From the NCBI GenBank assembly GCA_003565135.1, contig PXDC01000053.1, positions 1-43,990 of the forward strand: DNA of 43,990 nt, in the 5' to 3' direction. The notes beneath the pieces were generated by a model. That model worked only from the letters and a program-made list of their open reading frames with translations. It did no database searches and was not told the origin of the DNA. Position 1 is the first letter of the stretch; each line of letters opens with the position of its first letter. This DNA comes from Verrucomicrobiota bacterium. GTDB taxonomy: Bacteria; Verrucomicrobiota; Verrucomicrobiia; Opitutales; T3Sed10-336. Below, piece by piece: positions 697 to 18,580 of the stretch. The position numbers and the translations under genes were made by a program.

Positions 697-1497
697 ATGG
701 ACCGCCTTCGTATCAGGCAACGCCCCCGCGGTTACCCTCTGATGCGACAGCATTGGGGTAAACTGCTCTTCATGCACTGGCCGCTCCCTTACCGTACCCT
801 GCGTGCCCGCGTCCCCGACTCCCTGGAGATCGACCTCTACCACGGCAATGCCTGGGTCGGTCTCATTCCCTTCACCATGTGGGGCGTCCGTCCGAGCTTC
901 ACCCCCCCGATTCCGGGATTGAGCGCCTTCCACGAATTGAACGTCCGCACTTACGTGCACCGCGACGGGGTTCCCGGAGTTTATTTTTTTTCCCTGGACG
1001 CTTCCCTGGCACCCGCGGTCTGGGCCGCCCGCCGCTTTTATCACCTCCCCTATTTTGCGGCGGAGATCTCCTTGCGTGACACCGCCGGGGAAATCGCCTA
1101 CCGGTCGCGGCGTACCCACAAGGACGCCCCCGCGGCGGAATTCCTCGCCCGATGGCGTCCGGGAAGGCCCCTGCCGGAAACCGATCCGGGTTCCCTGGCG
1201 TTTTTTCTGACCGAACGGTACTGCCTCTACACCGAGCATCGGGGCCGGCTCTACCGCTGCCGTATCCATCATCCCCCGTGGCCGCTTCAATCCGCCGAGC
1301 TGACCGAATTTCATTCCGACCTCCTGGCCTCCCACGACCTGCCCGAACCGGAGAATTCCCCCGTCCTGCACTACGCGGCAAACATCGGTGTCGATATTTG
1401 GCCGCTCACCCCGGTCGAGGGGCTTTCCCGGGCGCGCCAGGCCCTCGACACCATCACGGCAAAAACCGTACCCAGCCCGGGCGGCAACCCCGCCTGA
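697..1497 (+). CDS. DUF2071 (YqjF-like) protein
   Basis: 266-residue cytoplasmic protein with no signal peptide. It matches the DUF2071 family pattern: an opening 'W..LLFMHWPLPY..LRARVP' segment, then GNAWVGLIPFTMWGVRP, a central FHELNVRTYV and VYFFSLDAS stretch, and the HLPYFAAEISL region. The family is widespread and adopts an acetoacetate-decarboxylase-like fold, but no reaction is firmly established, so I give no function. It begins a plus-strand group whose next gene starts 64 bases after its stop, so co-transcription with the secreted protein and the M14 peptidase is plausible. The ATG at 697 is preceded by AAGGA at a workable distance. Family call is good; role is unknown. Confidence 0.8.
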   Translation: MDRLRIRQRPRGYPLMRQHWGKLLFMHWPLPYRTLRARVPDSLEIDLYHGNAWVGLIPFTMWGVRPSFTPPIPGLSAFHELNVRTYVHRDGVPGVYFFSLDASLAPAVWAARRFYHLPYFAAEISLRDTAGEIAYRSRRTHKDAPAAEFLARWRPGRPLPETDPGSLAFFLTERYCLYTEHRGRLYRCRIHHPPWPLQSAELTEFHSDLLASHDLPEPENSPVLHYAANIGVDIWPLTPVEGLSRARQALDTITAKTVPSPGGNPA

Positions 1498-1561
1498 CGC
1501 GGAGCGCGGTTTCACCGCCTGCGGGATTGACCCGGGATCGCATTCAAACACGCTCGAACCG

Positions 1562-2590
1562 ATGTTTCATTACCGTTGTTTCCGCTGGAAAGGTGCGGCA
1601 CCGGTCGCTCCCGTGGCCCCTTTACCCTTCGTCCGCCGGTCCGCCTGCCTGATCTGTGCCGGGCTGGGGCTGACGGCCTTCGATCCGGTCCCGGCATCCG
1701 CCGCACCCGACCCCCGGCCGGAACGCGGCACGTGGCATTGGACGGGGCGGGGCGACAACCACCCGTACGGTTCGGCCCGGGCCGTCGGGAATCCCGAAAG
1801 CGAGGCCGAGATCCTGGAGATCTATCGCCGCTGGAACATCGTCCGGGTCTACACGAGTTACCCGGCCGACCGTCTGGAGAACGAACCGGATCCGGTGGCC
1901 CGATGGAACGCCACCCTGCACGGGGACGGCCGCAACGCGTTCCTCCTGTTGTCGACGACCCGGTGGATCTTCGAAGACCAGCGCGACGCGTTGCGGGAGG
2001 CCCTGCGGAAACGCCTGCTGGATTTCAACCGATCGCGGACCGATCCCGCCGAACGATTCCACGGTCTCCATTTCGACATCGAGCCTCACATCCTCGACGA
2101 ATGGAACCGGGCCACCCCCGAGGGAAAACGCGATTTCCTGTTCCTTCTCCGCGACCTCTTTCTCGACGCCCGCCGCTACCTCGACGAAAACGGCGGGGCA
2201 GCCCTGCCGATCCACGCCGCCCTCCCGGTTTGGTTCGATCGCCTTCCACCCGAACTCGGGGGCCGGGGAAGCATCGGCTGGGAAAGCCCCCGGCAGCGCG
2301 ACGGTTGGTTCCGCTCGGTCGGTGACGCCGTGGCGGCCATCAGCCTTATGGCATTTGAAACCCCGCACGTGCGCACCATCCTGGGTAATACAGAATGGGA
2401 ACGGGCTCATTTCGCCGGCGACGTGTTTGTCGCCCTGCGCGCCAATCTCGGCGGCGAATGGAAGGATATCAGCGAGATGATCGCGGCCATGGGCGAAGTG
2501 GAGGCGGCGACCGGCGGCGGCATCGACATTCAACCCTTTCGACGCTTCGCCGAAAAAGCGGGAAACCACCCTCCGCCCGTGACGAAATGA
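1562..2590 (+). CDS. Secreted hypothetical protein, probable TIM-barrel glycosidase-like fold
   Basis: 342 residues from the ATG at 1562. The frame stays open further upstream, but this start gives a plausible export signal: Arg/Lys near the N-terminus, a hydrophobic run around residues 20-40, and Ala-rich SASAA before the mature PDPRPE. I do not recognise the family. The mature part is rich in Trp/Arg and contains GLHFDIEPH, with Asp172 and Glu174 on a predicted strand; this resembles the 'DxD/E' strand-4 motif of GH18-like barrels. HAALPVWFD and AISLMAFETPH look like later barrel strands ending in acidic residues. A secreted carbohydrate-active or amidase-like role is possible but inferred only from motif shape. 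It sits between a DUF2071 gene and an M14 peptidase on the same strand. Confidence 0.6.
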   Translation: MFHYRCFRWKGAAPVAPVAPLPFVRRSACLICAGLGLTAFDPVPASAAPDPRPERGTWHWTGRGDNHPYGSARAVGNPESEAEILEIYRRWNIVRVYTSYPADRLENEPDPVARWNATLHGDGRNAFLLLSTTRWIFEDQRDALREALRKRLLDFNRSRTDPAERFHGLHFDIEPHILDEWNRATPEGKRDFLFLLRDLFLDARRYLDENGGAALPIHAALPVWFDRLPPELGGRGSIGWESPRQRDGWFRSVGDAVAAISLMAFETPHVRTILGNTEWERAHFAGDVFVALRANLGGEWKDISEMIAAMGEVEAATGGGIDIQPFRRFAEKAGNHPPPVTK

Positions 2591-2649: not shown

Positions 2650-3414
2650 ATGGAACGACCCAAGGCAAAAAGATGGCTGGAAAACGTCCTTGCCCTGGCC
2701 CGCAATGCGGGGTTTGCCGCGGCCTCTCTCGATCGCGCGTACGATCTCCCCCTCCTGGCCCTGACCCGCCCGGCGCCGGGTCCGGCCCCGAGGGTCTACC
2801 TTTCGGCCGGCATCCACGGCGACGAACCCGCCGGTCCCCTCGCATTGATGGATCTCCTGCGCGAGCGCTTTTTCGACGATCGTTTTACCTGGACCCTTTG
2901 TCCCCTGCTCAATCCGGCCGCCTGGGATGCCGGCACGCGGGAGAACCCAGGGGGTATCGACCTGAACCGGGATTACCGCCAGCCCCGCAGCCGGGAGGTC
3001 CGGGCGCATCGAGACTGGCTGGAGGCGCAGCCGGCCAACGACCTCTACCTCTCCCTGCACGAAGACTGGGAGGCCAACGGTTTTTACCTTTACGAGATCA
3101 ATACCACGACGCTCCATTCCCTGGCCGAAACCATCCTTGATGCGGTGGAAGCCGTTATTCCGCGCGAGACGGGATCCCGGATCGACGGTCACGAAACCGC
3201 CGCCCCGGGACTGATCCACCACCGGCCCGAAGCCGACGAGCCAGAGTATTGGCCGGAGGCGATCTTTCACCTCAAAAGGTACCCGCACCTGTCGTACACA
3301 TTCGAGACGCCCAGCGCCCGGGACCTGGTCACGCGCACCGCGGCACTGAAGCTGGCCACGCAGGCCGCCATCGACGGTTTCTTCGAAATCAGGGCGAACG
3401 CGGAATCGCCCTGA
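2650..3414 (+). CDS. M14-type zinc carboxypeptidase / succinylglutamate desuccinylase-like metallopeptidase
   Basis: 254 residues, no signal peptide, so probably cytoplasmic. The zinc site is visible: AGIHGDEPAG supplies His56 and Glu59, and LYLSLHEDWE supplies the third ligand His137. GIDLNRDYRQP carries the substrate-carboxylate Arg motif, and YTFETPS provides Glu219 in the position of the catalytic Glu of M14 enzymes. The short length resembles MpaA-like murein-peptide amidases and the M14/AstE group rather than secreted carboxypeptidases. With PBP4 nearby, recycling of wall peptides is a fair guess, but the substrate cannot be read from the sequence. The gene lies 59 bases after the secreted protein. 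It converges with the HA-repeat gene, separated by only 27 bases and with no clear terminator. Confidence 0.8.
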   Translation: MERPKAKRWLENVLALARNAGFAAASLDRAYDLPLLALTRPAPGPAPRVYLSAGIHGDEPAGPLALMDLLRERFFDDRFTWTLCPLLNPAAWDAGTRENPGGIDLNRDYRQPRSREVRAHRDWLEAQPANDLYLSLHEDWEANGFYLYEINTTTLHSLAETILDAVEAVIPRETGSRIDGHETAAPGLIHHRPEADEPEYWPEAIFHLKRYPHLSYTFETPSARDLVTRTAALKLATQAAIDGFFEIRANAESP

Positions 3415-3441: not shown

Positions 3442-5364
3442 TCACCGCCCGGCGGTACGGTCCTTTTTCGCCCGTCGCTCCGCCCAGGGAAAACCGACGG
3501 CTTCCAGGAGTTCGATGTGGACGGGTTTCAGGAGGCCCCGTTTGTGTCGCTGCTTCTGCTGGGCGGCCCACTCGGCGAGCGCCTGGTTCGGAGGGTACTG
3601 ACGCGGTACACGACTGTGCCCGTGTTCGCGCCGGAACGCCTTGAGCCCTTCGTAATGCCCCATCCATTGAGGGGTTGGTTGGTCCGCCAATTCAAACGAA
3701 AAACCGACCGCCTCCAGCAGCCGCTTCCGGTCCGCGCGCAAATCTCCCCGTTGATACAGCGAACGCTGTCGTCTGACCCATACCGCCAAATCCGAATTTC
3801 CCTCGCCCGGCTCCACGCGGGTGTGGCCGTGGACCGCCACGAACCGTTTCAACGCTTCGTAGCGCCGCCGCCACCGCTCCTCGTGAAAGGACGTCAGGTC
3901 CCACACCATTCCCAGTTCGTCGAGCATTTGCACCTGGCGTTCATTCAAACGCCCCTTACGCCGGCTGCGCCGCTGCGCCGCGAGCCACCGCTCGAGGCGG
4001 CCCGGCAGGTCGTGCGGATCGGGGATACGCCCGCCGTGTTCCTTCCGGCAGATGGCCCTCAATTCCTCCAGGTTCTTCTGCCACAGGCCGGTTTGGATCC
4101 GCCGGGCTTCCTCTTCCCGAGCCCCGTCGCGGCCCGGGCGCGGATTCGGGTCCACTCCCAGCGAATCCAATGCCGCTCTCTGGTCGGCGGGAAGGCGCCG
4201 GTTGCGGTAAGCGGTCCTTTGGCGTGCCAGCCACCGGCCGAGCGATTTGTTACGGGGGTCGGTCTGCGTCACGCCGGCGTGACCGTAGTCCCGGTGAAAC
4301 GCTTTCAGTTGGTCGAAGTACGCCCACCAACGGCGGATTTCCGCCGGGCGGTCCCCCCAGGGGAAACCGGCTGCGTCCAGGGCCTCCTTTCGACGCGCGG
4401 CCAACACCCCCTGTCGGTACAGCCAGCGCTGCCGGCCGAACCAAACGTACAATCCATAATTCTCCTTTTTATCCGGAACCGCCCCCGGGCCCTGCCGCCG
4501 GACCCATTCACGGTACGCTTCCAGATTCTTTGACCAGGCCTCGTAGGCACCGTCGGAAATCTCCGTACGCTCCCAGTCGAAGCCCATCGCCTCCAGGGCC
4601 GTCTTAACCTCGGGCCGCAATTCACCTTTCCGGTACTCGGTCCGCCGCTTTCGCAGCCAGCGTCGCAGGTCCCGCTCGGGCAGGTGAAAAAAATCGAACC
4701 CCTGGGCCTCCGCCGCCTGTCGCACCCGATCAACCCATTTCTGCCAGGCCGGCACCTTCTTCACCGGAACCTTCTTTTTTTTCGCCGGACGTTTCTTCTT
4801 TGGCACCGGCTTCTTACGCTTCCGTTCAGCTACCGTCCAATCGTACCCGGTCGCATCGACGAGGGAAACCTGCCACGACCGCAGTTCCCCTTTCAATTTC
4901 CGCAAACGCGCCCGGTAAAGCCATTGCCGCAGCTCGGGCGGCAGCCGCGACAAGGCGAATTCACCGCTCTCGTCGACCGCCCGCTCCCGGACCTGCGAAC
5001 AAACCGCGGCCCAGTGACGGTACCGCTTCGACCGCTCGATGGCGTGGGGCGGGAGATCCCGGTCGTCGCCGGGTCGACCCGTCCCGGCCGCGGCTTCACT
5101 CGCCAGCTTCTCGGTCAGGGGCTTCCGGGGACGCCCCCGGCGCCGGCCACCGGGTTTCCGCGGACGGTCGTCGCCCCATTCCGAGGGGTCGACATAAGCC
5201 GCCTCCAAATCCCCCGGACTGATTCCCCCCATGTCGCCCGCTTCCCCCGGGAAACCGCGAACCGGCCGGCTATTCCCCTTGCGAGCCTGGCGCTCCTTTT
5301 CTTTCCGTCGCCGGGCCTGGAGACGCTGCTGCCGTTTCCGGGAGTCTTTTTTCTTTCGGGCCAT
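3442..5364 (-). CDS. Protein of seven tandem helicase-associated (HA) domains, no helicase
   Basis: 640 residues made almost wholly of helicase-associated (HA, PF03457-type) repeats. Each is about 60-75 residues: an aromatic W/Y start (W..yyeaLkaF), an H/G-rich turn, a central 'LaxWxxxQRxxyrrG.L' helix, and a closing 'LexxGFxW'. I count seven: roughly residues 115-175, 205-262, 272-335, 345-405, 425-490, 495-555 and 570-630. The N-terminal ~100 residues and a linker near 180-205 are Lys/Arg-rich and low complexity, as in a nucleic-acid binder. No Walker A, DEAD/DEAH or nuclease motif is present, so this is a stand-alone HA array. HA domains normally follow SNF2/SF2 helicase modules and are thought to bind nucleic acid. 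It is upstream of nothing obvious; valS lies 177 bases away on the same strand. Confidence 0.85.
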   Translation of the reverse strand: MARKKKDSRKRQQRLQARRRKEKERQARKGNSRPVRGFPGEAGDMGGISPGDLEAAYVDPSEWGDDRPRKPGGRRRGRPRKPLTEKLASEAAAGTGRPGDDRDLPPHAIERSKRYRHWAAVCSQVRERAVDESGEFALSRLPPELRQWLYRARLRKLKGELRSWQVSLVDATGYDWTVAERKRKKPVPKKKRPAKKKKVPVKKVPAWQKWVDRVRQAAEAQGFDFFHLPERDLRRWLRKRRTEYRKGELRPEVKTALEAMGFDWERTEISDGAYEAWSKNLEAYREWVRRQGPGAVPDKKENYGLYVWFGRQRWLYRQGVLAARRKEALDAAGFPWGDRPAEIRRWWAYFDQLKAFHRDYGHAGVTQTDPRNKSLGRWLARQRTAYRNRRLPADQRAALDSLGVDPNPRPGRDGAREEEARRIQTGLWQKNLEELRAICRKEHGGRIPDPHDLPGRLERWLAAQRRSRRKGRLNERQVQMLDELGMVWDLTSFHEERWRRRYEALKRFVAVHGHTRVEPGEGNSDLAVWVRRQRSLYQRGDLRADRKRLLEAVGFSFELADQPTPQWMGHYEGLKAFRREHGHSRVPRQYPPNQALAEWAAQQKQRHKRGLLKPVHIELLEAVGFPWAERRAKKDRTAGR

Positions 5365-5541
5365 CGGCCGTTACCGTTCGCGGATTCGCATGGGACTTCG
5401 CCCGGAAGCTAAGCGCACGCGCCGGTGCAAAGCAAGCGCGGGTTCGGGGAACGCGGGGCGGGTCCCTACCCGCCCGCCGCTTTCGGCCGGGCACGGGGCA
5501 GGCCGCGACAACGGGTTCCGCTGTGAACCTCACTCGCCGGT

Positions 5542-8253
5542 TCAACCGGACAACGCACCGAGGAGTTTTTCCACCTCCGCTTTTTTGTCCTTTAATTCGT
5601 CGAGCTGGCGACGGGCGCCTTCGACAATTTCGGGTGGCGCTTTGGAGACGAACTTTTCGTTCCGCAACTTGCCTTCACCGACGGCAACCTGTTTATCCAG
5701 TTTGGCCAGCTCCCGGCCCAGGCGCTCCTTTTCCGCCTCGACATCGACCGCCCCGGAAAGGTCGAGCTGGATGGTCCCGAGACGGGTCACAACGCCCGGA
5801 GCGCCATCGCCGGCCGCCGCAAAGGATATCCCGGCGGCCCCGATCAGCGCTTTGAGCTTGCCGAGCGAGGCTTCGATCTGGCCCCGGGCGCCCTTGTCGG
5901 CCTGGACAAAGAAAGAAAGATCCTTCCGGTTGGCCAGGTTGTAGTCGGCCTTCAGGGCGCGGGAACGGGTGACAAACTCCTGGAGGTTCACGGTGTTTTG
6001 CTCCGCCGCCCGGTCAGGTGAGACCCCGGCTGCCTCCAGCGCGCGCTTCAACTCGCCGGCATCCGGCGTATGCGCGTTCTGGATAAAGTCCGTGTCGGTA
6101 CCGTATCCGAGATCGTGCCACAACTCTTCGGTGATAAACGGGATGTAGGGATGGAGCAGGAGGAGCAATTGGCGAATGACAAAGTCCTGGAGCGCCAGCC
6201 CGGTTTCGCGCACCCCGGGATCCCGCGAACGGGTCTTGGAAACCTCCAGGTACCAGTCGCAGAAATCGGTCCAGAAAAAGGTGTACAACCGCTGGGCGGC
6301 GCCGGTGAACTCGTAACGATCCAGCGCCCGGTTCACCGCTTCGGTGGTCTCGAGCAAACGCAGCAGGATAAAGTGATCGTCGTCATCCAGGGCGTCGGGA
6401 CCGATCCGCGAGGCGACCGCTTCCAGGGAGCGGTTATCCCTCATGTCACCGGACATCTGCCGGTAGCGGCAGGCGTTCCAGAGTTTGTTGCAGAAATGCC
6501 GGCCCGTTTCGACCCGGTCTTCACTGAAGCGGATATCCTGACCCTTCGGCGCAATCAGCATGATACCGAGCCGCAGACCGTCGGCGCCGTACCGGTCGAT
6601 CAGATCGATCGGGTCGGGTGAATTTCCGAGGGACTTGGACATTTTTCGTCCCTGGATGTCGCGGATAATGCCGGTGTAATAGACGTCGCGGAACGGAATC
6701 CGCCGCTCCACCGGTTCCCCCGGACGCATGAACTGAAGACCGGCCATGATCATCCGGGCGACCCAGAAAAAGATGATATCCGGACCGGTCACCAGGGCAC
6801 GGGTGGGGTAGAAATAATCCAGGCCCTGCTTTTTTTCCTCCTCCGGGTCGGGCCAGCCCAGGGTGGCGAAAGGCCAGAGCCAGGACGAAGCCCAGGTGTC
6901 GAGCACGTCCTCCTCCTGCTCCCAATTCTCCGGATCGGCGGGAGGTTCCGTGTCGACATACCAGTTTTCCGGCGCGGAGCGATCGCTTCCTTTCCGGTAC
7001 CAGACCGGAATGCGGTGGCCCCACCAAAGCTGGCGGCTGATACACCAGTCCTGGATATTGTCCAGCCAATGCAGGTAAATCTTCGACCAGCGGTCGGGAA
7101 AGAAGCGGATTACGCCGTCCCGCACCGCGGCCTTGGCCTCTTCCACCGCGGGATACTTCAGGAACCACTGCTCGGAAAGGCGCGGTTCGATGGGAACGTC
7201 GGCGCGCTCGCTGAAACCGACGTTGTTTTCGTAGGGTTCTTCCCGCACGAGCAGCCCCGCTTCCCGCAACATGCCGGCCGCGAGTTTCCGCGCCTCGAAG
7301 CGGTCCATGCCGGCAAAGGCCTCGCCGGCCGAATCATTGAGTGTGGCGTCGGGATTAAAAACGTCGCGGACCGGCAGATCGTGCCGCCGACCGATGTCGA
7401 AGTCGGCCTTGTCGTGGGCCGGGGTGACCTTGAGAACGCCGGTGCCGAACTCCGGATCGATGTAGGAATCGGCGATCACCGGAATGGCCTCGCGGGGAAA
7501 CGGGCGCCAGACTTTCTCCCCCACCAGGTGCCTGTAGCGCTCGTCGTCGGGGTGCACGGCCACCGCGGTGTCGCCCATGATCGTTTCCGGGCGGGTGGTG
7601 GATATCTCCAGGAACTCCCCCGGGCGGTCGACGAGTTCGTAACGCATGTGATAGAGGACGCTGTTCTGCGTCTTCATGATCACCTCCTCGTCCGAAAGGG
7701 CCGTGAGGCTGGCGGGACACCAGTTGACCATCCGTTTACCGCGATAGACGAATCCGTCCCGGTAAAGCCGCACGAATGCCTCCTGAACCCGGCGACTGTA
7801 AGCCGGATCGAGCGTGAAGACCTCCCGGTCCCAATCACAGGAACAGCCCAACCGCTTCAGCTGTTCGATAATTATACCGCCGTGCTTTTCCTTCCACTCC
7901 CAGGCTTTCTCCAGGAATTTCTCCCGGCCGAGGTCGCGGCGGGTGACGCCCTCCTTTTCCCGCAGATCCCGCTCCACCCGGGTCTGAGTGGCGATTCCGG
8001 CATGGTCGGTGCCCGGAAGCCACATCGCCTCCTTGCCCTGCTGCCGGGCCCTCCGGATGAGGATGTCCTGGAGCGTGTTGTTGAGAACATGCCCCATGGT
8101 GAGGACCCCGGTGACGTTCGGCGGGGGAATCACGATACAATACGGTTCCCTGTCCGGGTCGGGACGGCCCCGAAAACAGTGCCGATCGATCCAGGTCCGG
8201 TACCAACGGGACTCAACCTGGCCGGGCTCGTAAGCTTTGCTGATTTCTGACAT
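5542..8253 (-). CDS. valS: Valine--tRNA ligase
   Basis: 903 residues, the normal length for ValRS, which charges tRNA-Val with valine in the cytoplasm. The N-terminal class I signature is IPPPNVTGVLTMGHVLN; the first residue of the HIGH box is Thr52 rather than the usual His (TMGH). The editing domain (TTRPETIMGDTAVAVHP), the DWCISRQLWWGHRIP segment, the KMSKSLGN loop near residue 555, an anticodon-binding domain, and the C-terminal coiled coil (AEKERLGRELAKLDKQ...) are all in order. The start at 8253 gives the usual MSEISKAYEPGQVESRWY opening. It is divergently arranged with glnD across an 80-base gap. A weak GC stem (5456-5475) lies downstream without a U tract. Confidence 0.97.
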   Translation of the reverse strand: MSEISKAYEPGQVESRWYRTWIDRHCFRGRPDPDREPYCIVIPPPNVTGVLTMGHVLNNTLQDILIRRARQQGKEAMWLPGTDHAGIATQTRVERDLREKEGVTRRDLGREKFLEKAWEWKEKHGGIIIEQLKRLGCSCDWDREVFTLDPAYSRRVQEAFVRLYRDGFVYRGKRMVNWCPASLTALSDEEVIMKTQNSVLYHMRYELVDRPGEFLEISTTRPETIMGDTAVAVHPDDERYRHLVGEKVWRPFPREAIPVIADSYIDPEFGTGVLKVTPAHDKADFDIGRRHDLPVRDVFNPDATLNDSAGEAFAGMDRFEARKLAAGMLREAGLLVREEPYENNVGFSERADVPIEPRLSEQWFLKYPAVEEAKAAVRDGVIRFFPDRWSKIYLHWLDNIQDWCISRQLWWGHRIPVWYRKGSDRSAPENWYVDTEPPADPENWEQEEDVLDTWASSWLWPFATLGWPDPEEEKKQGLDYFYPTRALVTGPDIIFFWVARMIMAGLQFMRPGEPVERRIPFRDVYYTGIIRDIQGRKMSKSLGNSPDPIDLIDRYGADGLRLGIMLIAPKGQDIRFSEDRVETGRHFCNKLWNACRYRQMSGDMRDNRSLEAVASRIGPDALDDDDHFILLRLLETTEAVNRALDRYEFTGAAQRLYTFFWTDFCDWYLEVSKTRSRDPGVRETGLALQDFVIRQLLLLLHPYIPFITEELWHDLGYGTDTDFIQNAHTPDAGELKRALEAAGVSPDRAAEQNTVNLQEFVTRSRALKADYNLANRKDLSFFVQADKGARGQIEASLGKLKALIGAAGISFAAAGDGAPGVVTRLGTIQLDLSGAVDVEAEKERLGRELAKLDKQVAVGEGKLRNEKFVSKAPPEIVEGARRQLDELKDKKAEVEKLLGALSG

Positions 8254-16366: not shown

Positions 16367-18580
16367 TCAATCCTCCACGTTCACCCGGTAAAAGCGACGC
16401 GGATACGTGGATACCTCTTCCTCGATGAACTCGGCGACGCCGGTACCGTCCGCTTCAATCGTCGCGAGCGGTTCCCAGTTCACCAGGTCCCCGGAAACCT
16501 CCAGGGCGAAGGAGGCGTTGGCTTCCCCGGTTACCTGCACGCGGACATTGCCGTCCGGCGTGCGGCCCGCGGCCACCTGCGGCAGCCCCACAAAAGCCGG
16601 GGGTCCGACTTCGGTCACCTCAAAATTATCGAGGTGGATTTCGTACGGGCCCGTCGGGTAGTTGTCATCACCATCCCTCACCGGCATGAACGCCAAGTGT
16701 TCAATGGTCCCGCGATCGCCGTCCAGTTCCCCGTCGGCGCCGACCCCGGCAAACGCCGTGACCAACTCGTTGGGTATGTCGAAATAAAGGGTCGTCCATT
16801 GCCCGGCCCGGACCAGCCGCGCTTTCGGCGGAACGCTGTCCGGGTCGATATCCCCGCCAATCCATTCGATGCCGTTATGGATGTTTCCATCGCCGGTTCC
16901 TCCGTCTTCACCGATACCGTCGTTCGCGGGACTCAATCCCGGGGCGTGGGTTTCGCGGACCGCAAGGGTTACATAAACATCCTCGTTCGTATGGATATCG
17001 AAGCGCAGGAATTGCTCAAAGCTGATGATCGGATTCCCCAGAGTGGCGACATTGAAGGTCGTCAGGCGCAACCACGGGTTGGCGAGGTCCGCGGCGAAAC
17101 TGAAGTTTACCAGCAGTGACTGGGCCCCCCAGTTCCCTTCCGGAACATCGTCCGTTACCTGGGCCAGGTTGGGAGCCGCCACATTGCCGCTGGTCGATCC
17201 GGAGAAACTGGGTGCCCGGAACATCACCGTCCCGTTGGCCGCGGGCAGCACAATATCCTCGAAGTCGGCAAAACGCACCCCGGTCGGCGCGGGCGCGATG
17301 ACCAGGGCCGCGCCTTCGGTCTCGCGGCTGCCGTGAGTATTGCCGACCTCCACCGAGTACCGGCCGGCGTCGGCCGGAACCGCCTCCGCAAGGGTCAGGG
17401 TGGCGTCGGTGGCACCGGAGATGCGTCCCCCGTCGGTCACCTCCTCACCGTCGCGGAACCACTGGTAATCGAAGGGCTCCTCGCCCTCGACCTCGACGGA
17501 AAACACCGCGTTCTCACCTTCCTCCAACTGAACGGTCCCGGGAACCTCCAGGAAAATAAAGGGCTGCACATCGATTTCGGCACCGCGGCTCAGGGTGGTC
17601 TCGCTGCCGTCGGAAACCGCCACCCGGTAGAGCCCGGCATCGTCGAATTCGGTACCGGTAATCGTTAGGGTGTCGCTGGTGGCACCGGAGACGCGGGGAT
17701 CGGAATCGGCGAGCTCGACGTTGTCCTTCAACCACTGATACGTAAGGGTTCCGGAACCCTCCGCGACCAAGCTCAACTCAAACTCGAAACCGACCGCCAC
17801 TTCGCGGCCCTCCGGATGCTCCACGATATCGATGGCGCGCGCCGCACCCGGATCCTGCGCCAGGTAGACATCGTCGTAATTGGCCGGAAAGTTCGCGGTG
17901 GAAAACGGTCCACCGATATTGACGATCTCCATGGAACCGCCGTTCCACGGGATAGCGGTCCCGTTGGGATCGAGCTCGCCGTTGACATAGATATCGACCG
18001 AGTTTTCAAAGATGACAAACCGGAATTCCTGCCAGCCTTCACTCCGCTCGGCGGCGAGCTGGATCCATCCGGGTCCGGCGAAGACGCGCGCCTGGTAACG
18101 GGTGACGTCGAATTCACCCACCTGCGTCTCGATCCAAAAGGGAGCCGCGAAGATGTTGCCGAACTCGGCGCGCACTTCGGCGTAGTTGGCGCCGGCCACC
18201 AGCACCTCCTCTTCCGCATCCTCGTCGAACTCGGTCGTCATGTGGTCGTATACGCGAAACTGGAAAACAATCGGTTCGTCATCGGTGGGATTGAGATCCA
18301 TGATCTCCCACCAGCCGCGGTTCACTCCGCCGGACATCAGGACACTCTGGTTTGTGGTCCCGTCCGGGTCCTGAGTCACCAGTGGCGCCAGGTCGGGATC
18401 CTGATCGGCCGGAAACAGGGGCCAATCGCCGGTTTCCTGGTCGCCCATCTGGGCGGTCGATGTGTAGCTTTCAAAATCGATATCGATAAATATCTGCTGC
18501 GCGTAAGCGGAAACGGCCGCCACCGCGAAGCACAGAACCAGCAGAGCCGGCAGTTTCAGAACCGAGGATTTGGTATTCAT
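16367..18580 (-). CDS. Secreted protein with two Ig-like domains and a Verrucomicrobia-type C-terminal tail
   Basis: 737 residues. The signal peptide is clear: MNTKSSVLKLP, a hydrophobic core and SAYAQQ cleavage near residue 27. The N-terminal ~220 residues look like a concanavalin/LamG-type jelly roll (FQFRVYD, WIQLAAERSEGWQEFRFVI, DIYVNGEL). Two Ig-like domains follow, about 250-340 and 342-430, each with the 'YQW.kDg.el.d..R.SGAt..tLtit....DAG.Y.V.V' core. A second carbohydrate-binding-like segment lies at 445-650. The last ~65 residues carry FALEVSGDLVNWEPL ... RRFYRVNVED, a tail common on secreted proteins of this phylum. It is rich in Asp/Glu, unlike its neighbours. Role is likely extracellular adhesion or glycan binding; no catalytic motif is seen. 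Confidence 0.85.
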   Translation of the reverse strand: MNTKSSVLKLPALLVLCFAVAAVSAYAQQIFIDIDFESYTSTAQMGDQETGDWPLFPADQDPDLAPLVTQDPDGTTNQSVLMSGGVNRGWWEIMDLNPTDDEPIVFQFRVYDHMTTEFDEDAEEEVLVAGANYAEVRAEFGNIFAAPFWIETQVGEFDVTRYQARVFAGPGWIQLAAERSEGWQEFRFVIFENSVDIYVNGELDPNGTAIPWNGGSMEIVNIGGPFSTANFPANYDDVYLAQDPGAARAIDIVEHPEGREVAVGFEFELSLVAEGSGTLTYQWLKDNVELADSDPRVSGATSDTLTITGTEFDDAGLYRVAVSDGSETTLSRGAEIDVQPFIFLEVPGTVQLEEGENAVFSVEVEGEEPFDYQWFRDGEEVTDGGRISGATDATLTLAEAVPADAGRYSVEVGNTHGSRETEGAALVIAPAPTGVRFADFEDIVLPAANGTVMFRAPSFSGSTSGNVAAPNLAQVTDDVPEGNWGAQSLLVNFSFAADLANPWLRLTTFNVATLGNPIISFEQFLRFDIHTNEDVYVTLAVRETHAPGLSPANDGIGEDGGTGDGNIHNGIEWIGGDIDPDSVPPKARLVRAGQWTTLYFDIPNELVTAFAGVGADGELDGDRGTIEHLAFMPVRDGDDNYPTGPYEIHLDNFEVTEVGPPAFVGLPQVAAGRTPDGNVRVQVTGEANASFALEVSGDLVNWEPLATIEADGTGVAEFIEEEVSTYPRRFYRVNVED

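Follow-up and report, generated by a model that had tools for sequence, protein, structure and literature searches.

HA-domain helicases carry a ResIII/DEAD motor and a Helicase_C domain followed by a C-terminal array of tandem PF03457 (HA) units, and they occur in Streptomyces, in Clostridia, and in the bacterial order and class to which the locus described here belongs. The four that we scanned with Pfam matched ResIII/DEAD and Helicase_C, and the two that we scanned with PADLOC both matched profiles of DNA restriction enzymes. A single HA unit is available as a solved chain, 2kta_A, named "Putative helicase". Arrays that stand alone have also been deposited: WP_062546108.1 of Rufibacter tibetensis (8 HA units, 567 aa) and WP_302211104.1 of Tunicatimonas pelagia (5 HA units, 337 aa) contain no helicase, are annotated as "helicase associated domain-containing protein" and lie on Bacteroidota plasmids. 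The sequence-only reading of our locus had supposed that such arrays exist elsewhere and that the function of HA domains is unsettled. Both statements agree with what we found: the two deposited arrays lack a helicase, and no functional study of the PF03457 HA domain is among the matches listed in the open literature; a passage of one review (PMC12787238) concerns the HA2 domain of DEAH helicases.

We analyzed a gene for such a stand-alone array in a stretch of 43,990 nucleotides from a Verrucomicrobiota bacterium (the window). The gene starts with ATG, and Pfam matches its product to PF03457 in six stretches (E = 4.5e-69) with a score of 229.1 bits against a cut-off of 28.4, which identifies an HA array. 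The sole further Pfam match, PepSY_2 (E 0.19), is under its own cut-off, and an NCBIfam scan of the protein gave no match. When the host genome was searched for HA domains, this locus returned six matches, five of them above the curated cut-off singly and one below it, and one unit was not seen by Pfam. A profile made from the repeats of the protein itself delimits seven units (aa 115-178, 204-266, 274-338, 343-406, 425-490, 494-559, and 564-629), which it matches by construction. An independent profile made from 54 HA repeats of Streptomyces and Clostridia helicases finds units 2-7 at 23.8-43.2 bits, with unit 2 matched over aa 229-266 only, and unit 1 at 7.5 bits over aa 143-178 only; the maximum among 200 shuffled copies was 5.1 bits. 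The HA array is thus real and not due to chance, and the count of seven is correct, with unit 1 being degenerate. The sequence-only reading had proposed seven units, all of the HA type, and had asked whether a further domain was hidden among them; the units match the HA profile and no further domain passes its cut-off. It had also described the array as the whole protein after a basic tail, which holds for the HA units and the basic start but overlooked an AT-hook-like motif within aa 1-114 and a lysine-rich linker between units 1 and 2 (Table 1).

The AlphaFold model of the whole protein (mean pLDDT 70.2, pTM 0.28) is a loose string of separate modules. Each of the seven units contains three helices in this model, including unit 1, the third helix of which (aa 165-172) lies in a stretch with pLDDT below 50, and the last HA unit is modeled as three helices with a pLDDT of 93.1. 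All seven units are net positive, by +3 to +7 each. Summed over the units, helix 1 contains 27 K/R and 17 D/E and helix 2 contains 36 K/R versus 10 D/E, compared with 9 versus 14 in helix 3, a distribution that makes helix 2 the likely contact face of the HA units.

The region before the first unit is also basic. Its K/R-rich start reads MARKKKDSRKRQQRLQARR, and aa 2-30 are predicted to form a basic helix, which is in effect a single-sequence prediction because the aligned rows do not reach this part of the protein; aa 1-35 have a net charge of +14. The following aa 33-101 are predicted to be disordered (pLDDT below 50) and contain the sequence RRRGRPRKP, which has both the core and the basic flanks of an AT-hook, whose consensus we take to be [KR]GRP[KR] with basic residues on either side. 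In composition-preserving shuffles of aa 1-114, the core arises in 2.1% of cases, whereas a stricter version that has a pair of basic residues on either side arises in 0.2%. The core is present in only 3 of the 12 members of the protein family described below (the window, G002, and G270, the last from another taxonomic family), and it is therefore not essential to the family. A K/R-rich start is found in most members, the window protein included: a KxKLARPPK-type start was seen by eye in f4, f23, and three of the four f11 members, and a shorter QSEKKRKR in f22. The lysine-rich linker is 74% identical between the window and the sister species G002 (23 aligned codons).

Table 1 Features of the HA-array gene and its flanking genes (window coordinates).
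Feature	Positions	Strand	Details
Stand-alone HA-array protein	3442-5364	-	640 aa; net charge +64 (K+R-D-E)
Basic N-terminal helix (predicted)	5275-5361	-	aa 2-30; pLDDT block means 90, 96, 86 (aa 1-30)
AT-hook-like RRRGRPRKP	5119-5145	-	aa 74-82, in predicted disordered stretch; sequence, model
HA unit 1, degenerate	4831-5022	-	aa 115-178; Pfam silent; own-repeat and independent profiles, model
Lysine-rich linker	4756-4824	-	aa 181-203; net +14 over aa 179-203
HA unit 2	4567-4755	-	aa 204-266; alone under Pfam cut-off; both profiles
HA unit 3	4351-4545	-	aa 274-338; genome HA search, both profiles
HA unit 4	4150-4338	-	aa about 343-405; genome HA search, both profiles, repeat tree
HA unit 5	3895-4092	-	aa 425-490; aligns to solved chain 2kta_A, E 1.5e-7
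HA unit 6	3688-3882	-	aa about 495-559; genome HA search, independent profile, repeat tree
HA unit 7, family-signature terminal unit (LAE[FYW].AQ type)	3478-3675	-	aa 564-629; last-unit and repeat trees
valS	5542-8253	-	upstream, same strand, 177 bp off; not part of system
AstE/AspA-like gene	2650-3414	+	convergent neighbor; near HA gene in G002 too; not part of system

The protein lacks the motor that defines the HA-helicases. Pfam finds neither a helicase nor a nuclease in it (no DEAD, ResIII, or Helicase_C match), and a profile of the HA-helicase motor, which lies N-terminal to the array in those proteins, does not match it either; its first HA unit begins at aa 115. We therefore rejected a helicase hidden in this frame, given that Pfam, NCBIfam, and the motor profile were all without one. 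The flanking genes are valS and the AstE/AspA-like gene, and not a motor encoded next door as in a split HA-helicase. The Pfam scan of the 12 family members, eight of which were entered from a later, conserved start and not as the longest frame, gave no credible helicase or nuclease domain; the weak matches, DNA_pol_B_thumb among them (best E 0.01, in two members), were taken as not real. The motor profile likewise found no helicase reading frame in the stretches around the 12 genes (about 6.6 to 18 kb, and the whole window). The absence of a helicase, as claimed from the sequence alone, is thereby upheld, and so is the companion claim that HA domains often follow one, with 22 of the 49 proteins in our last-unit tree carrying a helicase (a chosen set and not a frequency). 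The three best named HA-helicase loci found with tblastn had E values of 2e-27 to 5e-24, as measured against the candidate stretches alone.

HA-helicases with 5-14 HA units occur in the order and class of the window. Three of them, L114:5378-10255 (-), L129:5803-10197 (-), and L133:5086-9981 (-), have 11-14 HA units by our profile; a ResIII/DEAD motor is present in L114 and L129, and aa 39-636 of L114 match the PADLOC profile of a type IIG restriction enzyme. Locus L189:812-3397 (+), on a plasmid of Pseudomonas oryzihabitans, consists of a helicase-related gene and, behind it, two separate genes with HA domains; it is a split or broken HA-helicase and lies beside ParB and ParA family genes.

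The window protein belongs to a family of stand-alone arrays spread over one bacterial order, which the sequence-only reading had not recognized. From the last HA units of 49 proteins, of which 27 were labeled stand-alone and 22 helicase, we built a tree by a quick search on 67 columns with SH-aLRT support only, omitting proteins with fewer than four HA units, frames open at the 3' end, and last units under about 50 aa. In this tree, 12 stand-alone arrays form one clade (SH-aLRT 97), apart from the helicase units: those of the window, G002, G075, G028, G138, G174, G051, G079, G186, G294, G301, and G270, which span five taxonomic families of the order. Over the whole tree, 10 changes are required to account for the stand-alone label, and stand-alone arrays have therefore arisen, or have lost or gained the motor, more than once. 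Two proteins labeled stand-alone, L040 and L043, adjoin helicase reading frames in other frames and are probably broken helicases. The consensus of the last unit in the family is about P.W...Y..LKAF...HG...VPR.YP..QGLAEFVAQQKQRGRKG.L..EHIRLL.ELGF.W. With profiles made by leaving out one taxonomic family at a time, the held-out last units scored 95-117 bits in 10 of the 12 members, while the best outside repeat in those four runs reached no more than 79.8 bits (L049, a two-HA protein of G039); with f1 held out, its two terminal units scored 102.8 and 95.1 bits, and no outside repeat exceeded 75.4. L050, a fragment from the family genome G051, was not counted as an outsider in this scoring. When f4 (G051 and G079) was held out, its terminal units reached 72 bits, under the best outsider at 81.3, so that the membership of f4 is less sure and rests on the tree and the N-terminal start.

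The family members have 6 to 9 HA units each. In a repeat tree that includes 92 of the family's 93 HA units (66 columns, quick search, SH-aLRT only, with a long-branch warning), the units group by their position from the C-terminus, needing 23 changes compared with a shuffled mean of 65.6, a value as low being reached in 0 of 200 shuffles; near-copies favor clustering of this kind. The exception is the third-from-last unit of f4, which sits within the terminal group. By this clustering, the array looks old, and its units have been kept apart and not homogenised. G230 encodes a short protein (L106:1464-2975 (-)) that starts with a basic stretch and has 4 HA units but lacks the signature terminal unit; its upstream neighbor matches that of the G270 family member, and it may be a truncated thirteenth member of the family.

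HA domains are scattered among the genomes of this lineage. With the host genome counted, they occur in 7 of 88 relatives, 24 of 372 genomes of the order, and 26 of 384 genomes of the class, 5 of these 26 belonging to the order itself. Longer stretches were examined for the 23 other matching genomes of the order and for 17 of the 21 matching class genomes outside it (20 regions), that is, all but G447, G537, G549, and G661. By our classification, the 24 order genomes comprise 12 with the stand-alone family, one probable truncated member (G230), five with an HA-helicase (G130, G256, G330, G352, and G360, the motor of G360 being in two frames), and six others (G039, G096, G117, G210, G292, and G298, in the last of which the scan found no HA reading frame). 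The class also has stand-alone arrays outside this family, for example, L118, L120, L121, L124, L126, L128, and L130. Within the taxonomic family of the host, two of eight genomes have the gene and G001 of the same genus (96% complete) is without it; the protein is therefore not an essential nucleoid protein. We found no second HA locus in the host draft genome (4.23 Mb, 538 contigs, 82% complete) or in G002 (97% complete), and hence no HA-helicase in either.

Beyond the order, 12 of the 387 genomes sampled from the phylum match the terminal-unit profile at E 1e-9. This profile scores above 120 bits only in two sampled family members, both of which are in the profile, and at most 76.8 bits elsewhere. 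Other classes of the phylum have a short stand-alone family (L179:937-1707 (-), L180, L181:1282-2046 (+), L182, L183, L184, and L185:1483-2274 (+)), with 254-263 aa in six of the seven reading frames and 381 aa in L180, perhaps owing to the choice of start. In these proteins, two HA units precede a conserved domain of ~100 aa at the C-terminus, with Y[VI]QY.G inside it and a GxLP motif near its end. In the four that were scanned with Pfam, only HA is above the cut-off; the weak matches below it include one to DUF5382_C (E 0.00026), which overlies the first HA unit of L185, and one to EspA (E 0.057) in L179. We also considered a phage or plasmid origin of the gene and rejected it. One unannotated phage record matches, and two viral contigs have a relative, one of them being, to judge from its length and the site of the match, the same contig end as the Streptomyces helicase L034. 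Matches were found in 180 plasmid records, in none of which a single place extends over 80% of the query. Searches with the terminal unit gave one viral contig at 33% identity and eight plasmid records at less than 60% identity each.

The gene is under purifying selection between the window species and G002. The two proteins are 67% identical, with dN 0.23, dS 1.6 (near saturation), and a ratio of about 0.14 for this one pair, and unit 7 has the lowest pN of the seven units (0.117). The start of the gene is unusually similar at the nucleotide level: 75 bases from just before the ATG (window 5293-5367 (-)) are 95% identical to the G002 orthologue, while synonymous sites elsewhere are near saturation, and among the first 27 codons 19 of the 22 codons for identical residues are themselves identical (10.1 expected). 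We found no second copy of this start in the host genome and no such codon identity in seven other gene pairs of the family. When ORFs antisense to real genes are disregarded, other 27-codon windows in the few real genes compared with G002 reach similar values (17 of 19 in a deaminase, 17 of 21 in a histidine kinase). We regard the conservation of the gene start as an oddity and not as evidence.

The neighboring genes in the window are housekeeping genes, and none is conserved across families. In a comparison of ORFs of at least 90 aa, which covered the first 16,000 bases of the window, no partner gene was common to the families apart from one Y1-transposase-like pair near L048 and L108. Neighbors are shared within families, namely, the upstream gene of L106 and L108 (f11), in f22, in f4, and at L104 and L110 of f11. 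PADLOC returned 0 families, and the locus was not classed as anti-phage defense. An operon with valS was rejected as a general rule, as ~7.5 kb separate the two genes in G002 and the link is absent from the stretches of other families. Elsewhere in the window are a 400-aa reading frame at 1388-2590 (+) with no Pfam family at E 0.001 and a 737-aa protein with immunoglobulin I-set domains at 16367-18580 (-).

The best explanation we can offer, which we hold at about an even chance, is that the gene product is not an enzyme but a multivalent binder of nucleic acid, most likely an architectural or regulatory factor that acts on DNA. A nucleic-acid-binding role is suggested by the long row of basic modules, joined by flexible, basic linkers, together with the AT-hook-like motif, in a protein in which no catalytic domain was found; the attachment of HA units to ResIII/DEAD helicases elsewhere is consistent with nucleic-acid contact. 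The basic second helix may be the main means by which each HA module touches the phosphate backbone or a short segment of nucleic acid, and the flexible linkers would allow the modules to lie along one molecule or to bridge two. The AT-hook and the basic helix may add a minor-groove and electrostatic grip, and the conserved terminal module may serve a function common to the family, such as a fixed site or a partner contact. The likely outcome would be coating, bridging, or local occlusion of DNA, for which nucleoid-associated or silencing proteins offer a parallel, and not unwinding or cutting. Against this explanation stand the presence of the AT-hook core in a minority of members, the fact that basic tails rich in lysine occur just as commonly in proteins that bind RNA or ribosomes, an empty fold search, the patchy distribution of the gene, and the degenerate first unit.

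The alternative that survives best, which we consider rather unlikely, is that the array binds RNA as a ribosome- or mRNA-associated protein, with lysine-rich tails that would bind RNA as disordered segments. The helicases to which HA modules are fused are of the SF2 type, a superfamily in which many members work on RNA, and the very basic N-terminal tails look like those found in RNA-binding proteins. The gene also lies just downstream of valS on the same strand in the window, but this link is loose in G002 and unseen in other families. The restriction enzyme matches of both HA-helicases scanned with PADLOC concern DNA, and the AT-hook is a DNA motif. We believe that DNA is a more likely ligand than RNA.

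It is improbable, in our judgment, that the protein is a detached targeting subunit that cooperates in trans with a helicase or nuclease whose gene lies at another place in the genome, in the manner of a specificity subunit. A split of this kind is conceivable, since HA arrays elsewhere form the C-terminal part of helicases, and the Pseudomonas oryzihabitans plasmid has helicase-related and HA genes that are close but separate. However, the motor profile finds no helicase in the examined stretches around the 12 family genes, the families have no common neighbor except the transposase-like pair, PADLOC gave no match, and no second HA locus was found in the host draft genome (82% complete) or in G002 (97% complete).

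We give a similarly low probability to an array that reads sequence, in which each HA unit recognizes a short, unit-specific piece of DNA and the whole array reads a long site. The repeat tree is structured by unit position and the last unit is well conserved across families, as such an array would have it, but positions could equally be kept by folding or by partner contacts, and the number of units varies within the family. A position-fixed form, with unit-specific contacts, the last unit at a constant site, and the AT-hook and basic helix clamping the ends, is likewise doubtful; if true, it would be a helicase-free, TALE-like bacterial DNA-binding scaffold made from a module known mainly as a helicase appendage. 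The least likely alternative is a decayed remnant of an HA-helicase minus its motor, which we regard as highly improbable: HA-helicases occur in the same order and class, unit 1 is degenerate, and the motor was lost or gained more than once in the wider set, but the dN/dS of the window and G002 pair, the long intact frames of the 12 members (chosen partly for length), their common terminal unit and basic start, and the clustering of their terminal units apart from those of helicases all argue against decay.

HA domains are common, and a protein made only of HA units and basic tails would allow the function of the module to be measured without a helicase. An order-wide family with position-specific units shows which residues matter, and if the units bind DNA in a unit-specific manner, they would represent a new kind of modular DNA-binding scaffold.

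Compared with described systems, the window protein has the tandem PF03457 units of the HA-domain helicases without the motor that precedes them. A Foldseek search of the HA model against the PDB gave no match and so offers no structural likeness to a known DNA-binding fold. The HA unit of the window protein aligns with 2kta_A at E 1.5e-7 by sequence (unit 5) and 2.1e-13 with a repeat profile, 2kta_A being one isolated 74-residue module versus an array of seven. With AT-hook nucleoid-associated and silencing proteins, beside which MvaT and Rok may be named, the likeness presumably lies in multivalent basic DNA binding and an AT-hook-like element; it is one of analogy only, as there is no common domain and PF03457 is the sole family in the window protein. 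Alike in architecture are the helicase-free arrays of Rufibacter and Tunicatimonas, the printed starts of which, unlike that of the window protein, show no AT-hook or lysine-rich tail by eye. The stand-alone HA architecture is thus already known, and what is new here is an order-restricted variant of it.
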